In this document: positions 2,576-25,345 of the stretch, piece after piece
How positions within the stretch are numbered: position 1 is the first letter of the stretch
How the letters are laid out: each line of letters starts with the position of its first letter
DNA from: a virus
Strand: one strand, 5' to 3'
DNA: 26,093 bases
IMG/VR virus record: IMGVR_UViG_3300028800_001081
Span: 1 to 26,093 of that record
The notes under the pieces: model-generated
The model's database searches: none
Told to the model about the DNA's origin: nothing
What the model saw: the letters and a program-made list of their open reading frames with translations, nothing else
Program-made: the position numbers and the translations under genes

Positions 2576-5377
2576 ATGTGTGAAAAACAAACTAAGGTGT
2601 GTAAAGCTTGTAATGAAGAAAAATCATTGGATGAATTTTATAAAAGAGAAAAGGGATATTATAGAGCAACTTGTAAAGTTTGCATGAATATACAAACCAA
2701 CAAATTACAAAGTGAAGGAAATTGGGATATAGAAGAATTTAGAATAGTTATTGATGCTTTATTAAATAAAAGATATAAAAATTTAAATGAGGTTCTTATC
2801 AAATTAAACAACAAGACTATGGAAGATTTGATTTTTGTAATAAAAGAGAAAGTTAAAATATTTAATACAGAATTAAATATTGAATCTTCCTGTTTATATT
2901 GCAATAAAGCTATAATTATTAAACCTTGTGAATATTTATCCAAAGAAGTAAGATTTTGTTCTTTGGATTGTTCAGCAAAATATCACAATGAAAATGAATT
3001 ATGGGGAAATAAAAGTAATGAGTTTATGGAATGGTTTGGAACAAAGGAAGAATTTATTAGAAATTATAGATTATTAGGCATAACTGAAACTGCTAAATAT
3101 TACAATAAAAATGAAAAAACAATTATATATTGGGCTTCTAAATATGAATTAAATAGAGAAATAGTGGTTAGTAATTTATCAGATTTTGAAGTTATAAAAC
3201 TTTATGATTTAATATTAGAAAATAAAATTAATAGTTTTCCTAATGGATTTTCTAAAAATGATAGTTATGCTATTGTTTTAATTAGACATTTAATTAATGA
3301 TATCTTAAAATGGAATAGACAGGATATTTGTAATAATTTGCAATCTAATTTATTTTTAAAGTATAAGTTGGACTCATGTGTTAATTATATAGATGGATAT
3401 TTTGATTTAATTAAAAATTCATTTCCAGAATATAATTTAAAAAGATGGGAATTAAAACATTGTACTAATTTAAATTATAATTTTTGGAATGATGAAGAAA
3501 ATGTAAATGAAGCATTAATATGGCTTCGAGAAATTTTAAATAAAGAAAAATTTATTGATTCCTCAGAAAAATTATCTAATTATAATTTAAAAAAATTATT
3601 ACATGATTATAATTTACATAATTTATGTATATTTAAATATAATAAAAATTCTAAAGAAATGTTTAAAGACGTATATAAAGTAGAAAATTTTATAGAAAAT
3701 GAAATCGAAGTTTTTGAAAAATGTATTAAATGTGAAATTGATAAACCTTATAATAAGAACTATTTTCCTGAGCGTAATCAGTTTAGTTTATTTGGACTTG
3801 GTTTTGTGTGTAAAGAATGTATTGAAAAGGAAGATACAAAACAAAGATATTCTAAATTAGGAATAATATATAATAACATTAATGACATTATTCCTGAACA
3901 ATGGTATGAATATTTTTATAATAATGAAATAACGCAGATGCCTTTACATTGTTATAAAGAAGATAATATGGTAAAGATAATAAGATTTATTGTTTTCAAC
4001 AAAATGGGACTTACTAAAAAAGAAGAAATTTGTAAAAATGTAAATTGTCCAAATTTAAATAATTACAAAATAAATGTTACGCAGAGATTTCAAACAAAAC
4101 TTGAAATGTTACAAAAATGTTTTTTTGAGTATAATATTGATGAAAATGATATTTTATTATATGATGACCAAACTATTATTGATTTAACTGATAATTGGAG
4201 AAAAGAACAAAATATATCAATAATGCAAATTTTAAAAAGTAATGGTATTAATAATTCATTTAACCAAGATATGAAAAATATAATGCAATATGTTAATAGG
4301 CATAAAGGTATGACAATTATGGATTATTTTCTATGGTATATGAATATCAAAAATATTTTATATCCTAAAACAAATAAGCCAATAATAGACCTTGATTTTA
4401 ATAATAAAAATGATGGATTTTGGGATAATAGTGAAAACAGAATTAGAGCTATTAAATATTATTGTGAATATCAATGCAAAGATAGTATATTCAATTTTAT
4501 AAGTAATTATCAAGATTTACAAAAATGGGTTGTCAAATATTTTTCAAAGAAAAAGTTAAAACATTTATATTATTTTAATGTATTTAAAATTCCCACTTTT
4601 GATTTATTAATTGAAGCATATCCATCTATAAAAGATAATAATTTATTATTTTCTTGGGAACTAAGCAGAAATAATGATACTTCAAAAGAAGATTTAATTA
4701 AAGTATTGAGAGAATATGTTTTTTATAGAATGAATAATATTTGTGTCGATATAAAAAGAGATTTGCCACAATATCTAAATAATACTTATATTTATTCGGT
4801 ATTCCCAAAATTTTCAGCATATATTTATAGCAAACATAAACAAAAAAGATTTGATTCATATTATCAATGGGCATGTTTATCTTTTCCTGAATATGCAAAT
4901 GATTGGACGGAATTAGATTTTGGAATTACTGCAACTTATGATGGTGAAAAATGTGGAAGTATTCAAGAAAAAATGATTTATGAGTTTATACAAAGAGATT
5001 GCAACTTAAAATATTTTACTATTATGTCAAGTAAAAGGTCGGGAAACTTTGTTTTTAAATTAGGTGAAGATTTTGTGTATAAAAAATTCTGCCCTGATTT
5101 TGTACTTGAATATATTGAAAAAAATGGTGAAAAAGTTAAATTGATAAAACCTATAATATTTGAATATTATGGATGGTATAGTGAAACAAATCAACATCAC
5201 ATTTTTGATGATTATAGAAAAAAGACTTTACTTAAAAATCAATTTTATAAATCACGAGAAGATATTCATTTCATTGATTTATATCCAGATGATTTAAAGA
5301 ATAATTTTGAAGGAGTTAGACAAAAGCTAACTTCTTTTTTTATGCTTAATTGTAATATAGATTTTAATAACTTTTAA
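2576..5377 (+). CDS. Very large zinc-finger and PD-(D/E)XK/Vsr-like nuclease, probable homing-type
   Basis: The 933-residue protein starts with a zinc-knuckle module (CKACNEEKSLDEFY ... CKVC, residues about 8-40), then a second Cys cluster (CLYC ... FCSLDCSAKYH, about 105-140) with a helix-turn-helix-like stretch (GITETAKYYNKNEKTI). A third zinc pair (CIKC ... CKEC) lies near residues 380-420. The middle is long, Asn/Lys/Tyr-rich and unrecognised. The C-terminal ~135 residues look like a nuclease: a Glu helix (QEKMIYEF), CPDFVLEY with Asp near 841, IFEYYGWY with Glu near 863, then a Lys-rich helix and IHFIDLYPDDL, the order of Vsr/EDxHD-type PD-(D/E)XK enzymes. ATG 2576 has GTGAGGT seven bases upstream. 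It stands as an island between a structured leader and a terminator, just before the tape measure gene. A defence nuclease is an alternative; at 933 residues it is much longer than usual homing enzymes. Confidence 0.6.
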   Translation: MCEKQTKVCKACNEEKSLDEFYKREKGYYRATCKVCMNIQTNKLQSEGNWDIEEFRIVIDALLNKRYKNLNEVLIKLNNKTMEDLIFVIKEKVKIFNTELNIESSCLYCNKAIIIKPCEYLSKEVRFCSLDCSAKYHNENELWGNKSNEFMEWFGTKEEFIRNYRLLGITETAKYYNKNEKTIIYWASKYELNREIVVSNLSDFEVIKLYDLILENKINSFPNGFSKNDSYAIVLIRHLINDILKWNRQDICNNLQSNLFLKYKLDSCVNYIDGYFDLIKNSFPEYNLKRWELKHCTNLNYNFWNDEENVNEALIWLREILNKEKFIDSSEKLSNYNLKKLLHDYNLHNLCIFKYNKNSKEMFKDVYKVENFIENEIEVFEKCIKCEIDKPYNKNYFPERNQFSLFGLGFVCKECIEKEDTKQRYSKLGIIYNNINDIIPEQWYEYFYNNEITQMPLHCYKEDNMVKIIRFIVFNKMGLTKKEEICKNVNCPNLNNYKINVTQRFQTKLEMLQKCFFEYNIDENDILLYDDQTIIDLTDNWRKEQNISIMQILKSNGINNSFNQDMKNIMQYVNRHKGMTIMDYFLWYMNIKNILYPKTNKPIIDLDFNNKNDGFWDNSENRIRAIKYYCEYQCKDSIFNFISNYQDLQKWVVKYFSKKKLKHLYYFNVFKIPTFDLLIEAYPSIKDNNLLFSWELSRNNDTSKEDLIKVLREYVFYRMNNICVDIKRDLPQYLNNTYIYSVFPKFSAYIYSKHKQKRFDSYYQWACLSFPEYANDWTELDFGITATYDGEKCGSIQEKMIYEFIQRDCNLKYFTIMSSKRSGNFVFKLGEDFVYKKFCPDFVLEYIEKNGEKVKLIKPIIFEYYGWYSETNQHHIFDDYRKKTLLKNQFYKSREDIHFIDLYPDDLKNNFEGVRQKLTSFFMLNCNIDFNNF

Positions 5378-9608: not shown

Positions 9609-9615
9609 ACATAAA

Positions 9616-9658
9616 TAAACTAAAGTCAATTTGCTTATCCCAAATTGACTTTAGTTTA
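9616..9658. terminator. Bidirectional terminator between convergent genes
   Basis: Bases 9616-9633 and 9641-9658 form a perfect 18-base inverted repeat around a seven-base loop (CTTATCC). A-rich and T-rich flanks on both sides allow it to work both ways. It separates the tape measure gene (plus) from the small minus-strand gene. Confidence 0.85.
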
Positions 9659-9666
9659 AAATAATG

Positions 9667-9909
9667 TTATTTACTTTGTAAAAATAACATTAAACTTTTG
9701 TGATACTCTTCTAATAATTTTTTAGAAATTAATAGAGCATCATTATGGAGTATTGCAATAATACTTCCTTCAGCTTGGGATTGTGAAATTTCTTTTTCTT
9801 TTGATTGATGTTGAATTTCTGCCATTTTAGAACTAGATAAATCTGACACTTCTACAATAATATTGGCAAAAGCTTTATCAAAATCGAATTTGAAATTATT
9901 AATATCCAT
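9667..9909 (-). CDS. Small minus-strand protein inside the tail module, unknown function
   Basis: This 80-residue protein (MDINNFKFDFDKAF...) is read on the minus strand against all its neighbours. The longer frame to 9975 is rejected because AAAGGAG on the minus strand lies just upstream of the ATG at 9909. The sequence is soluble and helical, with a central Glu/Lys/Gln-rich part (MAEIQHQSKEKEISQSQAEG) and an amphipathic C-terminal helix (LLISKKLLEEYHKSLMLFL). It has a good promoter upstream and a bidirectional terminator downstream, so it is a complete independent unit. Phage genes placed this way are often morons expressed in the carried state, for example for superinfection exclusion; that role is inference. 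No family recognised. Confidence 0.75.
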   Translation of the reverse strand: MDINNFKFDFDKAFANIIVEVSDLSSSKMAEIQHQSKEKEISQSQAEGSIIAILHNDALLISKKLLEEYHKSLMLFLQSK

Positions 9910-9941
9910 ATTTGTATCTCCTTTCCTCATTTGATAAATTA

Positions 9942-9970
9942 AGTATAACATATATGGATTTAAATAACAA
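9942..9970 (-). promoter_or_regulatory. Minus-strand promoter of the small moron gene
   Basis: On the minus strand TTGTTA (9970-9965) and TATACT (9947-9942) are separated by exactly 17 bases and lie just before the gene's AAAGGAG site. This supports expression independent of the late tail operon. Confidence 0.65.
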
Positions 9971-10059
9971 CACAAATATAAATATTTTTAATAATACAAG
10001 TTCCAATAAAATAGCAAATATATTTTTAAAATAATAAAATATAGAAAGGAGGAGTAATT

Positions 10060-13419: not shown

Positions 13420-14418
13420 ATGGGACGAAGTAAAAAGTTAACGTATGATTATGTTAAAAATTTTATAGAAATTGAAAGTGATAGCAGTTGTCTATTATTA
13501 TCTAATCAATGTGAAAATGCTCATTCAAAAATAAAAATATTATGCAAATGTGGAACAGAGTTTGAAACTGACTTTAATAAATTTAAAAGTAGAAATAAAA
13601 GACAATGTAATGCATGTAGTTTAGAAAATGTAAAAAATGCATTAAAATTTGATTATGAATATGTAAAAGAGTTTATAGAAAGTAATAGTAAATGTAAATT
13701 AATAAGTTTAGAATACAAATCTAATTGTACAAATTTAGACATTAAATGCAAGTGTGGAAATATGTTTCAAACTACTTTTGAAAGATTTAAAAATCAGAAC
13801 AAAAGACATTGTAAAGAATGTGGTAAATTACTAATGAGAAATTTTAAACTTTTAGATTATTATAAAGTTAAAAATTATATTGAAGTAGAAAGTAATAGTG
13901 GATGTTTATTAAATAGTAAACAATATGAAGGTTATTTTCAGCCTTTAGATATTCAATGTTCTTGCGGAAGAAGTTATACTACAACATTTGCTTCTTTTAA
14001 AAATAGTAACACAATTAGGTGTAGATTATGTAGCAACAAAACTTCTATACCTGAAGTAAATACAGGAAATATATTAGATAAAATGAATTATTGTTTCGAA
14101 ATGCAATATATGTTTAAAGATTGTAGAAATAAAAAGCCTTTAAGATTTGATATAGCTATATTTAAAAATAGCAATAAAACTAAATTATTGTGTTTATTAG
14201 AATTAGATGGAAAACAACATTTTGAACCAATACATTTTGGAGGTATTTCTAGTGATAGGGCATTAAATAAAATGGAAATAGCACAACATTGTGACTCCAT
14301 AAAAACTCAATATTGCCTAGACCACAACATTCCCTTACTTCGTATTCCCTATTGGGATTTCGATAATATTGAAACAATATTAGAGCAAGAACTTAAAAAA
14401 TATAATCTTATTACATAG
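13420..14418 (+). CDS. EDxHD (Vsr-like) homing endonuclease with three zinc-finger repeats
   Basis: The 332-residue protein has three repeats of about 69 residues (near 7, 77 and 145). Each has a YxxVKxxIE helix, then CKCG or CSCG, two Phe-rich strands and a closing CxxC, likely zinc-binding DNA-recognition modules. The C-terminal nuclease starts near residue 211 (PEVNTG, Glu212), then RFDIAI (Asp244), LLELDGKQHFEP (Glu261, His267), a HCD motif (His290, Asp292) and LLRIPYWDFDNIE. This matches the EDxHD homing endonuclease group with a Vsr-like fold, which cut double-stranded DNA at a long site to spread their own gene. ATG 13420 follows AAGGAGTG. It lies between two tail genes behind a terminator, as expected for a free-standing phage homing gene; no interrupted host gene is seen. 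Confidence 0.82.
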   Translation: MGRSKKLTYDYVKNFIEIESDSSCLLLSNQCENAHSKIKILCKCGTEFETDFNKFKSRNKRQCNACSLENVKNALKFDYEYVKEFIESNSKCKLISLEYKSNCTNLDIKCKCGNMFQTTFERFKNQNKRHCKECGKLLMRNFKLLDYYKVKNYIEVESNSGCLLNSKQYEGYFQPLDIQCSCGRSYTTTFASFKNSNTIRCRLCSNKTSIPEVNTGNILDKMNYCFEMQYMFKDCRNKKPLRFDIAIFKNSNKTKLLCLLELDGKQHFEPIHFGGISSDRALNKMEIAQHCDSIKTQYCLDHNIPLLRIPYWDFDNIETILEQELKKYNLIT

Positions 14419-16611: not shown

Positions 16612-16776
16612 ACAATAATAAATTAATGCAAATCAAGTACATTCAGTATTGAATGTCTTTTATATTATATTGAGGCATTAAAAGGATGTTTCATCGACTT
16701 TTTTGTGCCTTGAAACGGCTTGAAATAAACTTTACGGAAAATAAAAAATAGTAAGATTGAAAGGAAAGTGATTATA
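16612..16776. other. Intergenic spacer with small hairpins and a motif shared with 21224
   Basis: Between the terminator and the second fibre gene is a hairpin, ACATTC...GAATGT, followed by a T-rich stretch. Then comes GTTTC ... GAAAC (about 16688-16716) framing ATCGACTTTTTTGTGCCTTG. Its core resembles ATCGGCTTTTTAGAGCCTG at 21224-21242 (ATCG-R-CTTTTT, then GCCT and TGAA). No gene is visible. It may be a terminator remnant, a leader or a recombination site between fibre modules. Confidence 0.35.
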
Positions 16777-19607: not shown

Positions 19608-19618
19608 TTTATATCATT

Positions 19619-19701
19619 TATAGGGAGAGGAATACTTTGCCCTCAACGCAAGTATCCCCTTCCCTATAGGAACATCGAAAGGGTATCTTTATTATGCCCT
19701 T
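19619..19701 (+). terminator. Two consecutive hairpins before the endolysin gene
   Basis: The first pairs 19619-19637 with 19650-19668, an imperfect 19-base stem (TATAGGGA ... ATACTT arms) with extra inner G-C pairs. The second pairs AAGGGTAT (19679-19686) with ATGCCCTT (19694-19701), then ATTTGTTAGTTT. The first lacks a T-run, so it may be a processing or regulatory structure; the second is a plausible weak terminator. Confidence 0.5.
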
Positions 19702-19743
19702 ATTTGTTAGTTTATACAAGAAATTATAAGGAAGTGAAAAAAT

Positions 19744-20604: not shown

Positions 20605-21174
20605 ATGAGTGAAACATTGATAAGAGAAATTATAGAAGGTTTATTAGTACCTATATTGCCAATTTTGACAGCCTATATTATAAGTTTATTGAGAAAGAAA
20701 ACCGCAGATATCGAGGAAAATACTAAATTAACTTCTTATTCTAAATATATTAATATATTGGAAAATGCTGTTGAAACTGCTGTAGATGCTGTTAGTCAAA
20801 CTGTAGTTGATACAGCTAAGAAAAATGGTAATTTTGATAGTAATGCTCAAGCTGAAGCATTAAATTTAGCTAAGAGTAAAGTTGGTGCTATTGTAAGTAA
20901 TAACGCCAAGAATGCTATAACAGAAGCACATTCAGATTTTGACGCATATGTAAATGATAAAATCGAGGCTTATATTAAAAATAATTCTAATGGTTCATCT
21001 AGCGTTGCTAGTACAATTATATCAAATAATGTTGGCACTTTAAAGAATGTTGTATCAGATATTGGCAATCAAGTTGTTGAAAAAGCTAACGAAGAAGTAG
21101 ATAAAGTTTTACCAATATCAGATAATAGTTCTGGTAATCCAGAAGTTATTTCTGATGTTTTGAAACAAGAATAA
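20605..21174 (+). CDS. Phage holin, LLH family
   Basis: The 189-residue protein has one N-terminal membrane helix (EGLLVPILPILTAYIISLL, about residues 11-29), then a basic RKK and a long helical part with AVETAVDAVSQTVVDTAKK and AQAEALNLAKSKV, the hallmark of the LLH holin family. It would oligomerise in the membrane and release the endolysin at the programmed time. The C-terminal ~65 residues are an Asn/Ser-rich extension. AGGAGGAAT precedes the ATG, and the gene starts two bases after the previous stop. It is the last gene of the late operon; unusual hairpins follow. Confidence 0.85.
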   Translation: MSETLIREIIEGLLVPILPILTAYIISLLRKKTADIEENTKLTSYSKYINILENAVETAVDAVSQTVVDTAKKNGNFDSNAQAEALNLAKSKVGAIVSNNAKNAITEAHSDFDAYVNDKIEAYIKNNSNGSSSVASTIISNNVGTLKNVVSDIGNQVVEKANEEVDKVLPISDNSSGNPEVISDVLKQE

Positions 21175-21193
21175 TTAGTACTCTACCATCTAA

Positions 21194-21346
21194 CTGGTAT
21201 AGTTACCAGCAAATAGGTTTTTTATCGGCTTTTTAGAGCCTGAAGCCCATTGGATAGGCATTGTCTGAAATAGAAAAATCAAAAGAAAAGACGGAGGATG
21301 GAGAAAATCACTCCACCTCCCCTATTTCGGAACAAGTCCGAAATAG
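21194..21346. other. Non-coding region with several, partly exclusive hairpins
   Basis: Hairpins by eye: CTGGTA/TACCAG (21194-21209) followed by a run of six T; GGCT/AGCC (21227-21240); GGAGG-A-TGGAG with CTCCACCTCC (21293-21303/21311-21320); and a perfect 10-base stem CTATTTCGGA/TCCGAAATAG (21322-21331/21337-21346). TCTGAAATAG at 21264-21273 is a near copy of the last arm, so CTATTTCGGA could instead pair with it and enclose the GGAGG hairpin. The first hairpin may end the late transcript. No gene is seen; GC is higher than around it. Possible attenuator, small RNA, or replication or transfer site. Confidence 0.5.
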
Positions 21347-21396
21347 ATAATATTAATTATTTAGTTTGAGGCTATTGAATTAAATATAAATATTAT

Positions 21397-21425
21397 TTGC
21401 TTTATTATATTTATTATGTTATAAT
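21397..21425 (+). promoter_or_regulatory. Promoter of the DUF5659-like gene
   Basis: TTGCTT (21397-21402), a 17-base spacer and TATAAT (21420-21425) precede the AAAAGGAG site of the gene starting at 21449. It begins the maintenance region, apart from the late operon. Confidence 0.65.
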
Positions 21426-21448
21426 TAGGTAAAAGGAGATGATGTCAC

Positions 21449-21667
21449 ATGAGTAATATTTTTCAAACCTCGTCTTTAAATATTGTGGCGTGGTTATTAA
21501 CTAAAGGATATCCAGTAAAGGATAAAAAACGACTTGATGACAAAACAATATTCTATTTTGATAGAGTTGACACATTACAATCCGCAATTGACGCTTACAA
21601 TAATAATACAGATTTAAAAGAATTTATATCAAACTTTAGACAAGTTAAAATAATGGCTAAAACTTAA
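21449..21667 (+). CDS. Small DUF5659-like protein
   Basis: The 72-residue protein (FQTSSLNIVAWLLTKGYPVK ... IFYFDRVDTLQSAIDAYNNN ... ISNFRQVKIM) matches the pattern of DUF5659 proteins: an N-terminal TS(S/D)LxxxAxLLxKG helix, a beta hairpin and a final helix. These occur in Firmicute phages and mobile elements; their function is unknown. ATG 21449 follows GGAG at 21435-21438. It has its own promoter and terminator, so it is a single-gene unit, perhaps expressed in the carried state. Confidence 0.65.
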   Translation: MSNIFQTSSLNIVAWLLTKGYPVKDKKRLDDKTIFYFDRVDTLQSAIDAYNNNTDLKEFISNFRQVKIMAKT

Positions 21668-21751: not shown

Positions 21752-22336
21752 ATGAATAATGAGAAATATGGAATTAACGGAAATACCGTCTTTGAAAAGG
21801 ATGGTGGCTCAGTCATTGACTTAAAAGAAATTAAAAAAGTAAAAGAAAGAAAAATGATTGAAAAGGTTCATCAAGAACAACAAGAATTGCATGAACTAGG
21901 AATAGAATCTGATTTAATATTTGTTAAACATAGAAATAAAGAATATCAATGTGTTGAAGTTAAAAGAGAATTTGAGTTTAATAAGGAGTTTAGAGTTGAA
22001 TTGAGAGATATAATGATTAGTAAAGAGTTAAGTAAAAATGCAAGATGTTTTATAGGTACTCTATCCCCTTTCGTTAGTTTCCCAACTAATGCAATACATA
22101 TAAAATATAAAAATCCAACTTATATTGAACTTATGGATATATTAGATATGAGTAAAAATATTTTATATGAAACTTTAAATGAATTAGAAGAACATAACAT
22201 AATAAAAAGAATTAAAACAGACGGACAGTTGATAATTTATTTCAACTGTTTTTTATTTGTCGGAGGATATTGTGTAGAAAAAGATACTTATGATTTATTT
22301 AAAAATAGTATCTATAATCCTCTCAATATCAAGTAA
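21752..22336 (+). CDS. Winged-helix regulator or Rep-like protein
   Basis: The 194-residue protein begins with a charged region (residues 1-85, KKVKERKMIEKVHQEQQELH), then RDIMISKELSKNARCFIGTL and a winged helix: NPTYIELMDILDMSKNILYE, LNELEEHNIIKRIKTDGQLI (wing) and YFNCFLFVGG. The end, DTYDLFKNSIYNP, recurs in Firmicute phage and plasmid proteins related to RepL-type replication initiators and to phage MarR-like regulators. It could initiate plasmid replication or control transcription; the sequence cannot decide. TTTAGGAGGT precedes the ATG. It is a separate unit between two terminators, next to an EDxHD endonuclease. Confidence 0.65.
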   Translation: MNNEKYGINGNTVFEKDGGSVIDLKEIKKVKERKMIEKVHQEQQELHELGIESDLIFVKHRNKEYQCVEVKREFEFNKEFRVELRDIMISKELSKNARCFIGTLSPFVSFPTNAIHIKYKNPTYIELMDILDMSKNILYETLNELEEHNIIKRIKTDGQLIIYFNCFLFVGGYCVEKDTYDLFKNSIYNPLNIK

Positions 22337-22407: not shown

Positions 22408-22475
22408 TTGTTCAAATTATGGGAAAGAGCATCACATTTTTAATGATTAATTAACAAGTTAAAGGAGAAATGATT

Positions 22476-23615
22476 ATGGGATATACTAAAGGAATAAAAT
22501 GGACATATGAATTAGTAAAAGGATATGTTGAAAATTTAGGATATATTTTAATTAGTAAGGAATATAAGAGTAATAAAAATAATTTAATATTAAAAGATGA
22601 AAGTGAATATTTTTATTGTATTTCATTTGCTAGCTTATTAAGTAATTGTATTCCTAATATAGTACATATATCAAATCCATATACTATACAGAATATAAAA
22701 TTATGGTTAAAGATAAATAATAAGTCATTTGAATTAATAAGTGATAAATATATAAGTTCTAAAGAAAAATTACAATGGAGATGTTTAAAAGTAGAATGTA
22801 GAGAAATTTTTGAATCTACATGGAATGATATTCACTCTGGATGTGGGTGTAGTTTTTGTTCGGGAATGCAAATAGGTTTATCAAATTGTTTAGCAACAAA
22901 GAATCCAAATTTGGCATCAGAATGGCATCCAACTAAAAATGGCAGTTTGACTCCTTTTGATGTAACTTGTGGGAATACTAAAAAAGTTTGGTGGAAATGT
23001 GACAAAGGTCATGAATGGGAAGCAAATATTGCTAGTAGAAATAGTGGAAAAGGCTGTAGTATTTGTAAAGGTCAAATTCCTTCAAATGAAAATAATTTTT
23101 TAGCTTGCAGTCCAAAGTTGTGTGAAGAATGGAATTATGAGAAAAATGACAAAAAACCCGAAAAATATACTCCTCATAGTGGTTTACCTGTCTGGTGGAT
23201 ATGTAAAGATTGTGGATATGAATGGGAAACCCCTATTCATGAAAGAAGCAAAGGAAATGGATGTCCACAATGTAGAATGTCAAAAGGTGAAAAACGAATT
23301 AAGGAAATATTAGATTTATATAACATATACTATATTCCACAAAAAACATTTAATGGTCTAATTGGTTTAGGATATGGAAATTTATCATATGATTTTTATT
23401 TACCCGATTATAATTTATTAATAGAATATCAGGGTGAAATGCATGAAAGATTTGTAAAAGGAATACATAAATCTAAGAATGACTTTGATAAACAAGTAGA
23501 ACATGATAAAAGAAAATGTAATTATGCTATATTAAATAAAATTAAATTACTAGAAATATGGTATTATGATTATGACAATATAGATAGTATTATATTTGAT
23601 TATTTAAATATTTAA
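22476..23615 (+). CDS. EDxHD (Vsr-like) endonuclease with DUF4379-like zinc repeats
   Basis: ATG 22476 is preferred to 22470 because AAAGGAG lies eight bases before it; 379 residues. The N-terminal ~130 residues include a helix-strand module like the repeats of the gene at 13420 and a Cys cluster (RCLKVEC ... GCGCSFC). Two treble-clef repeats follow: LASEWHPTKNGSLTPFDV ... WKCDKGHEWEA ... CSIC, and CEEWNYEKN ... WICKDCGYEWET ... CPQC (DUF4379-like). The nuclease starts near 272: GEKRIKEIL, YDFYLPDYN (Asp306), LIEYQGEMH (Glu317, His323), VEHDKRK (His343, Asp344) and LLEIWYYDYDNID. It fits free-standing homing endonucleases that copy themselves into related elements. Terminators flank it, and ParA follows. 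Confidence 0.82.
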   Translation: MGYTKGIKWTYELVKGYVENLGYILISKEYKSNKNNLILKDESEYFYCISFASLLSNCIPNIVHISNPYTIQNIKLWLKINNKSFELISDKYISSKEKLQWRCLKVECREIFESTWNDIHSGCGCSFCSGMQIGLSNCLATKNPNLASEWHPTKNGSLTPFDVTCGNTKKVWWKCDKGHEWEANIASRNSGKGCSICKGQIPSNENNFLACSPKLCEEWNYEKNDKKPEKYTPHSGLPVWWICKDCGYEWETPIHERSKGNGCPQCRMSKGEKRIKEILDLYNIYYIPQKTFNGLIGLGYGNLSYDFYLPDYNLLIEYQGEMHERFVKGIHKSKNDFDKQVEHDKRKCNYAILNKIKLLEIWYYDYDNIDSIIFDYLNI

Positions 23616-25180: not shown

Positions 25181-25219
25181 AAATAAATGATTATACAATA
25201 TACCATTTTGTCTAATTCA

Positions 25220-25345
25220 AAGCCTAGAGTTCTTTTATCTCTAGGCTTACACTTGATGCGACAAAAATTTTATTTTGTATAATGACGTCTTTACATCTTT
25301 ACTACTCTTCTCTATTATTCTATCTCTATTCTACATATATTATAC
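25220..25345. other. Intergenic hairpin and pyrimidine repeats; possible parS or operator
   Basis: AAGCCTAGAG (25220-25229) pairs with CTCTAGGCTT (25239-25248); no T-run follows on the plus strand, so its role as terminator is unclear. ACAAAA/TTTTGT (25261-25278) follows and overlaps a TATAAT (25278-25283). Then comes a pyrimidine-rich stretch with TCTCTATT twice (near 25310-25330). The place between the partition and Rep-like genes suits a centromere, operator or replication origin, but repeats are few and weak. Confidence 0.35.

Follow-up and report, generated by a model that had tools for sequence, protein, structure and literature searches.

The gap between the lysis genes and the DUF5659 operon

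The window, a virus record of 26,093 bases, encodes tape-measure, tail, endolysin, holin, homing-endonuclease and ParA-like proteins by profile searches, and belongs to a little-studied group of phages that probably infect Firmicutes. The hairpins described here lie in a gap of 274 nt (21175-21448). On its left is the holin gene, last gene of the lysis module (20605-21174, plus strand; phrog_13712 holin, E 3e-29), and on its right a rightward DUF5659/winged-helix operon. The DUF5659 gene (21449-21667, plus strand; PF18903, E 8e-13) opens this operon and is followed by the gene for a 194-aa protein (21752-22336, plus strand), whose C-terminal part resembles a winged helix and whose profile matches are to helix-turn-helix and replication-initiation proteins only. 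No hidden gene fills the gap: we rejected its short frames, which encode only 23-30 aa and have no credible ribosome-binding site.

Two homing-endonuclease-like genes of the window, at 13420-14418 and 22470-23615, both match phrog_559; the second carries DUF4379 zinc-finger repeats and directly follows the DUF5659/194-aa pair. Just one clear leftward gene was noticed in the window; it encodes roughly 80 aa and lies at 9609-9975, between rightward tail genes. It has GGAAAGGAG ahead of an ATG near 9909, a good minus-strand promoter with its -10 at 9947, and a strong terminator hairpin of 18 bp at 9616-9658.

Searches of IMG/VR, genomes, phages and plasmids found a single related locus, in the 130-kb record IMGVR_UViG_3300031578_000004 (locus L008). 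The gene order there is the same (lysis genes, gap, DUF5659 gene with 72% identity, 194-aa protein with 70%), and the flanking proteins of the two phages are 70-74% identical. An HNH-like gene likewise follows the DUF5659/194-aa pair in L008. A second DUF5659 gene of this relative (L016, 988-1380; about 79.4-79.8 kb of the record) precedes repeated palindromes with the pattern GAGGTACAT..ATGTACCTGAGATTT.

The first-pass annotation had reported a perfect dyad, a near copy of one of its arms and a GGAGG/CCTCC hairpin in this gap, and all three are present. The dyad CTATTTCGGA-acaag-TCCGAAATAG (21322-21346) pairs 21322-21331 with 21337-21346 at 10 of 10 positions around a 5-nt loop. The third half-site, TCTGAAATAG (21264-21273, plus strand), is an alternative partner for 21322-21331, forming nine Watson-Crick pairs and one U.G pair that exists in plus-strand RNA only. 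Sequence and folding both identify the GC-rich stem-loop GGAGG(A)TGGAG / CTCCACCTCC (21293-21320), in which GGAGG (21293-21297), a bulged A (21298) and TGGAG (21299-21303) face CTCCA (21311-21315) and CCTCC (21316-21320).

The higher GC and density of stems noted at first sight were also confirmed, with a GC content of 0.39 at 21200-21349 against about 0.21-0.33 in the surroundings and folding beyond that of shuffled sequences on both strands. For the whole gap the minimum free energy was -74.9 kcal/mol on the plus strand (z -5.38, none of 200 shuffles as stable) and -64.4 kcal/mol on the minus strand (z -3.93), and a folding scan placed the most stable 120-nt frames of the entire window around 21281. 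Dyads with arms of at least 10 nt and at least four G/C per arm numbered four in the window, that at 21322-21346 included, and none in 20 shuffles; the remaining three resemble terminator hairpins between genes. A half-site match at one mismatch is expected about four times per 26 kb and about 0.04 times in the gap, and given this expectation the third half-site is weaker evidence than the dyad. The hairpin cluster is most likely a boundary between transcription units, a site where transcripts end, in agreement with its original description as a non-coding, structured region between the late genes and the next operon.

Other hairpins were noticed in the window. Two strong ones lie in series at 19608-19743 (TATAGGGAGAGG..CCTTCCCTATA and AAGGGTAT..ATGCCCTT), with a subtilase-like gene on one side and the endolysin gene on the other. 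At 25181-25292, downstream of the ParA-like gene and a partner ORF, an imperfect inverted repeat of 112 nt, built around a perfect core of 10 bp (AAGCCTAGAG/CTCTAGGCTT), may represent either a partition site or a terminator.

The region did not match any known RNA. Rfam 15 gave no family at the gathering threshold and only chance-level matches at E up to 10, and no tRNA or tmRNA was found. DNA similarity in phages and plasmids was at chance level only, one such match being a 30-nt A-rich stretch inside an Acetoanaerobium coding frame. A repeated or mobile element was rejected: the dyad with a variable loop occurred in one IMG/VR contig only, in an unrelated coding frame, and the GGAGG hairpin pattern in unrelated contigs only, none with the window's flanking sequence. 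An apparent duplicate of the element at 16640-16767, similar by eye, was rejected as well, the best local alignment falling elsewhere (p about 0.007, uncorrected for 13 gaps).

Alternative pairing and the proposed attenuation

The two pairings of 21322-21331 had been taken for mutually exclusive hairpins, possibly an attenuator between late and maintenance transcripts. This would be a plus-strand, riboswitch-like device with 21322-21331 pairing alternately to 21264-21273 and to 21337-21346. Both pairings exist, and the U.G pair makes the long-range one favourable on the plus strand only. On that strand, however, forcing the long-range pairing cost 2.0 kcal/mol within 21194-21350 and 4.8 kcal/mol in the whole gap, with mean pair probabilities of 0.017 and 0.0006, respectively; on the minus strand it cost 4.0-6.2 kcal/mol. 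The probability reached 0.28 only in the short fragment 21255-21346. In 21255-21336, where the last arm is not yet made, folding predicts the long-range form, which speaks for the swap in transcripts ending before 21337. The case for a mutually exclusive switch is thus weak, the long-range pairing being 2-5 kcal/mol worse and of little weight in the ensemble, and a two-way switch is possible only as, at most, a transient state.

An attenuator comprises competing stems, one of which is a terminator, upstream of the regulated gene in the same transcript. Competing stems are present here, but on the plus strand the dyad is followed by ATAATATTAATTATTT, with no U-tract. Furthermore, a very good plus-strand promoter, TTGCTT-17-TGtTATAAT at 21397-21425, scored fifth best of 52,114 positions with weights approximating the sigma-A consensus from general knowledge, so that the DUF5659 operon probably starts from its own promoter downstream of all hairpins. 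Lack of conservation of the arms in related elements had been named beforehand as evidence against the proposal; none of the window's arms is present in the gap of L008, the sole relative found, and we found no homologous copy of the hairpin region from which covariation could be scored. Since the plus-strand U-tract is missing, the long-range form has low weight and the operon promoter lies downstream, attenuation is not supported, and we regard it as very improbable.

Signals on the two strands

Terminator-like signals were found on both strands. On the plus strand, the hairpin CTGGTA-TAGT-TACCAG followed by T6 (21185-21222; dG -8.9, U-tail 4.13, z -2.3) is a candidate terminator of the late operon. 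Farther right, an AU-rich stem-loop of 56 nt with G-U pairs (21344-21399) is stable as plus-strand RNA only (z -3.92, 0 of 200 shuffles as stable; minus strand z -1.76), and its U-tail is weak (score 2.22). On the minus strand, GGGGAGGTGGAG..CTCCATCCTCC followed by GTCTTTTCTTTTGATTTTT (21275-21328) forms an intrinsic terminator-like site with dG -18.9 and a U-tail score of 4.08. This site (21285-21328) has the best combined terminator score of the window and is the only one there with dG at or below -18 and a U-tail score of at least 4, a combination that did not occur in 24 shuffled windows. Both stem and U-tract are present, the latter starting 1-3 nt past the GC core. U-tail scores of at least 4 occur at about 1.5% of minus-strand positions in the gap, where there are several stems and offsets; because U-rich flanks are not particularly unusual beside a strong hairpin in this sequence, the minus-strand terminator is suggestive, not proof.

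About 110 nt upstream of this terminator lies a promoter-like sequence on the minus strand, TTTACC-18-TATAAT (21404-21433), which overlaps the plus-strand promoter. Its -10 is perfect and its -35 fair, making it moderate overall, at rank 58 of 52,114 positions. The two sites would delimit an untranslated leftward transcript about 110-125 nt long (21275-21397, minus strand; fold z -4.88), within which no minus-strand ORF of at least 20 aa was found. An OOP-like RNA would have its own promoter, a terminator and no ORF; of these, the predicted promoter is moderate here and the predicted terminator strong. The promoter-like and terminator-like sequences come from our scans, and from them we infer transcription and function.

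We tentatively suggest that the core hairpins are mainly part of this putative leftward RNA, at the boundary between the late genes and the next operon. Its transcription would begin near 21397 at a promoter that overlaps the DUF5659 one; the RNA would fold the 21322-21346 stem-loop and end near 21275-21285 at the GGAGG hairpin and its U-rich tail. It would probably act in cis, either through promoter interference or by base-pairing to late transcripts that read through; a search for trans targets among the gene starts of the window gave none that stood out (best z -1.7). Several observations favour this leftward RNA. Its putative terminator is the only site of the window that passes both cut-offs given above, and has a perfect minus-strand -10 upstream. 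Among the window's ORFs, no minus-strand gene to the right of the gap has an mRNA that would need a leftward terminator. The plus-strand candidate at 21185-21222 lies farther left, so that the core hairpins have no role to fill on the plus strand. Finally, the same gap of L008 contains a leftward promoter-terminator unit comparable in length. Against the leftward RNA stand the rank of its promoter, the chance occurrence of U-rich flanks, the better overall folding of the plus strand, the plus-specific 21344-21399 stem, the G-U pairs of the L008 hairpin, and the lack of an outstanding target in the window or an Rfam match. The small RNA that the first-pass annotation had listed among its options is possible, with the minus strand its likelier source.

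In the close rival to this reading, the cluster does no more than form the 3′ end of the late (lysis) mRNA transcribed rightward, and there is no leftward RNA at all. A multi-hairpin 3′ UTR would end in the 21344-21399 stem and the tail CTTTATTATATTT, where it would halt RNA polymerase and protect the mRNA just ahead of the next promoter. The position of the cluster directly after the last lysis gene fits this, as do the folding of the gap, which is better on the plus strand, the stability of the 21344-21399 stem as plus-strand RNA only, and the terminator-like hairpins in most of the window's other intergenic regions. However, a good plus-strand U-tract is missing after both the dyad and the GGAGG hairpin, the tail of the 21344-21399 stem is weak, the more ordinary plus-strand candidate comes earlier, and the minus-side U-rich tail is left unexplained. 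We consider this 3′-end reading possible but somewhat doubtful. The strand signals conflict, and both strands may be transcribed.

The L008 gap forms different hairpins (z -2.95 on the plus strand and -3.74 on the minus strand) and contains two divergent promoter-like sites that overlap. With a leftward terminator-like hairpin (dG -9.4, U-tail 3.52) they give a leftward unit starting at about 4267 and ending at 4176, the sequence of which is not conserved with the window. Applying one set of cut-offs, we counted six promoter-terminator units in 67.7 kb of both phages, the terminator cut-offs having been fixed after the L008 terminator had been seen. Two of the six sit in this gap, one per phage and both leftward, whereas shuffled gaps contained such units in 0.75% and 0% of cases. 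The L008 hairpin contains G-U pairs when read in the plus sense, and at that locus they point to the plus strand. A bolder proposal is that of a phage small RNA kept in position and orientation while its sequence diverged, whose leftward promoter overlaps and excludes that of the next operon and so sets a switch between late and maintenance transcription; this we think quite improbable.

Possible DNA sites and known RNAs

The dyads could instead act as DNA. They would then serve as operator half-sites of the form TCYGAAATAG (21264, 21322 and 21337) recognised by a regulator, for example the 194-aa winged-helix protein, or belong to an origin or partition site. All three exact half-sites of the window fall within 83 bp, two of them are direct repeats 73 bp apart, and a winged-helix protein is encoded in the next operon. 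Near-perfect palindromes lie beside the promoter in L008 too. Yet the half-site is not conserved there despite the 70% identical winged-helix protein, the half-sites of the window lie 50-130 bp upstream of the promoter, and matches elsewhere occur at chance level. We therefore find a DNA site unlikely. The L008 palindromes (CCATTGTTGCGACAATGG, TTAAACTGCTAAAGCAGTTTAA) adjoin each other at 4288-4327, just upstream of the DUF5659 start, and are unrelated in sequence to the window's dyad.

The best PHROG matches of the L008 copy of the 194-aa protein are replication-initiation proteins. Identification of the 194-aa protein as RepL was rejected, PF05732 giving no match at E up to 10; hhalign aligned only 31 residues of the winged helix with RepL at a probability of 68%. 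The predicted structure of the 194-aa protein was too poor for use (mean pLDDT 36). An origin of transfer would call for a relaxase gene and a nic site; no relaxase was found among the scanned proteins of the window, which covers the phage only in part.

The OOP RNA of phage lambda ends at a Rho-independent terminator. It is 77 nt long, is transcribed from the pO promoter and is listed as acting in cis (PMC12197685). The proposed RNA resembles it as a short leftward untranslated RNA beside a rightward operon, with a winged-helix protein downstream whose relative best matches replication-initiation proteins. In contrast to OOP, it would overlap no cII-like gene and would lie after lysis genes.

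Plasmid countertranscribed RNAs, such as RNAIII of pIP501, are about 100-140 nt long and consist of stem-loops and an intrinsic terminator. The proposed RNA would share this size and make-up and the proximity to an operon encoding a DNA-binding protein. Unlike RNAIII, it would begin ahead of the point where the operon promoter is predicted to initiate, and so would not overlap the operon mRNA; the leader attenuator was not found here, and the 194-aa protein is only a candidate replication initiator. Intrinsic (Rho-independent) terminators of Firmicutes phages are intergenic GC-rich hairpins followed by a U-tract. The site described here has the same form and position, as do several more in the window, but it points leftward at a place with no leftward gene, and several hairpins are stacked. 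By analogy, the locus would join phage small RNAs or terminators, in a layout comparable to that of lambda OOP.

If the cluster is only a terminator region, it provides an ordinary but useful annotation of the end of a late operon. The leftward RNA, if real, would place an untranslated transcript at the boundary between lysis genes and the next operon in a little-studied phage group, with its layout, not its sequence, common to the window and its 130-kb relative.
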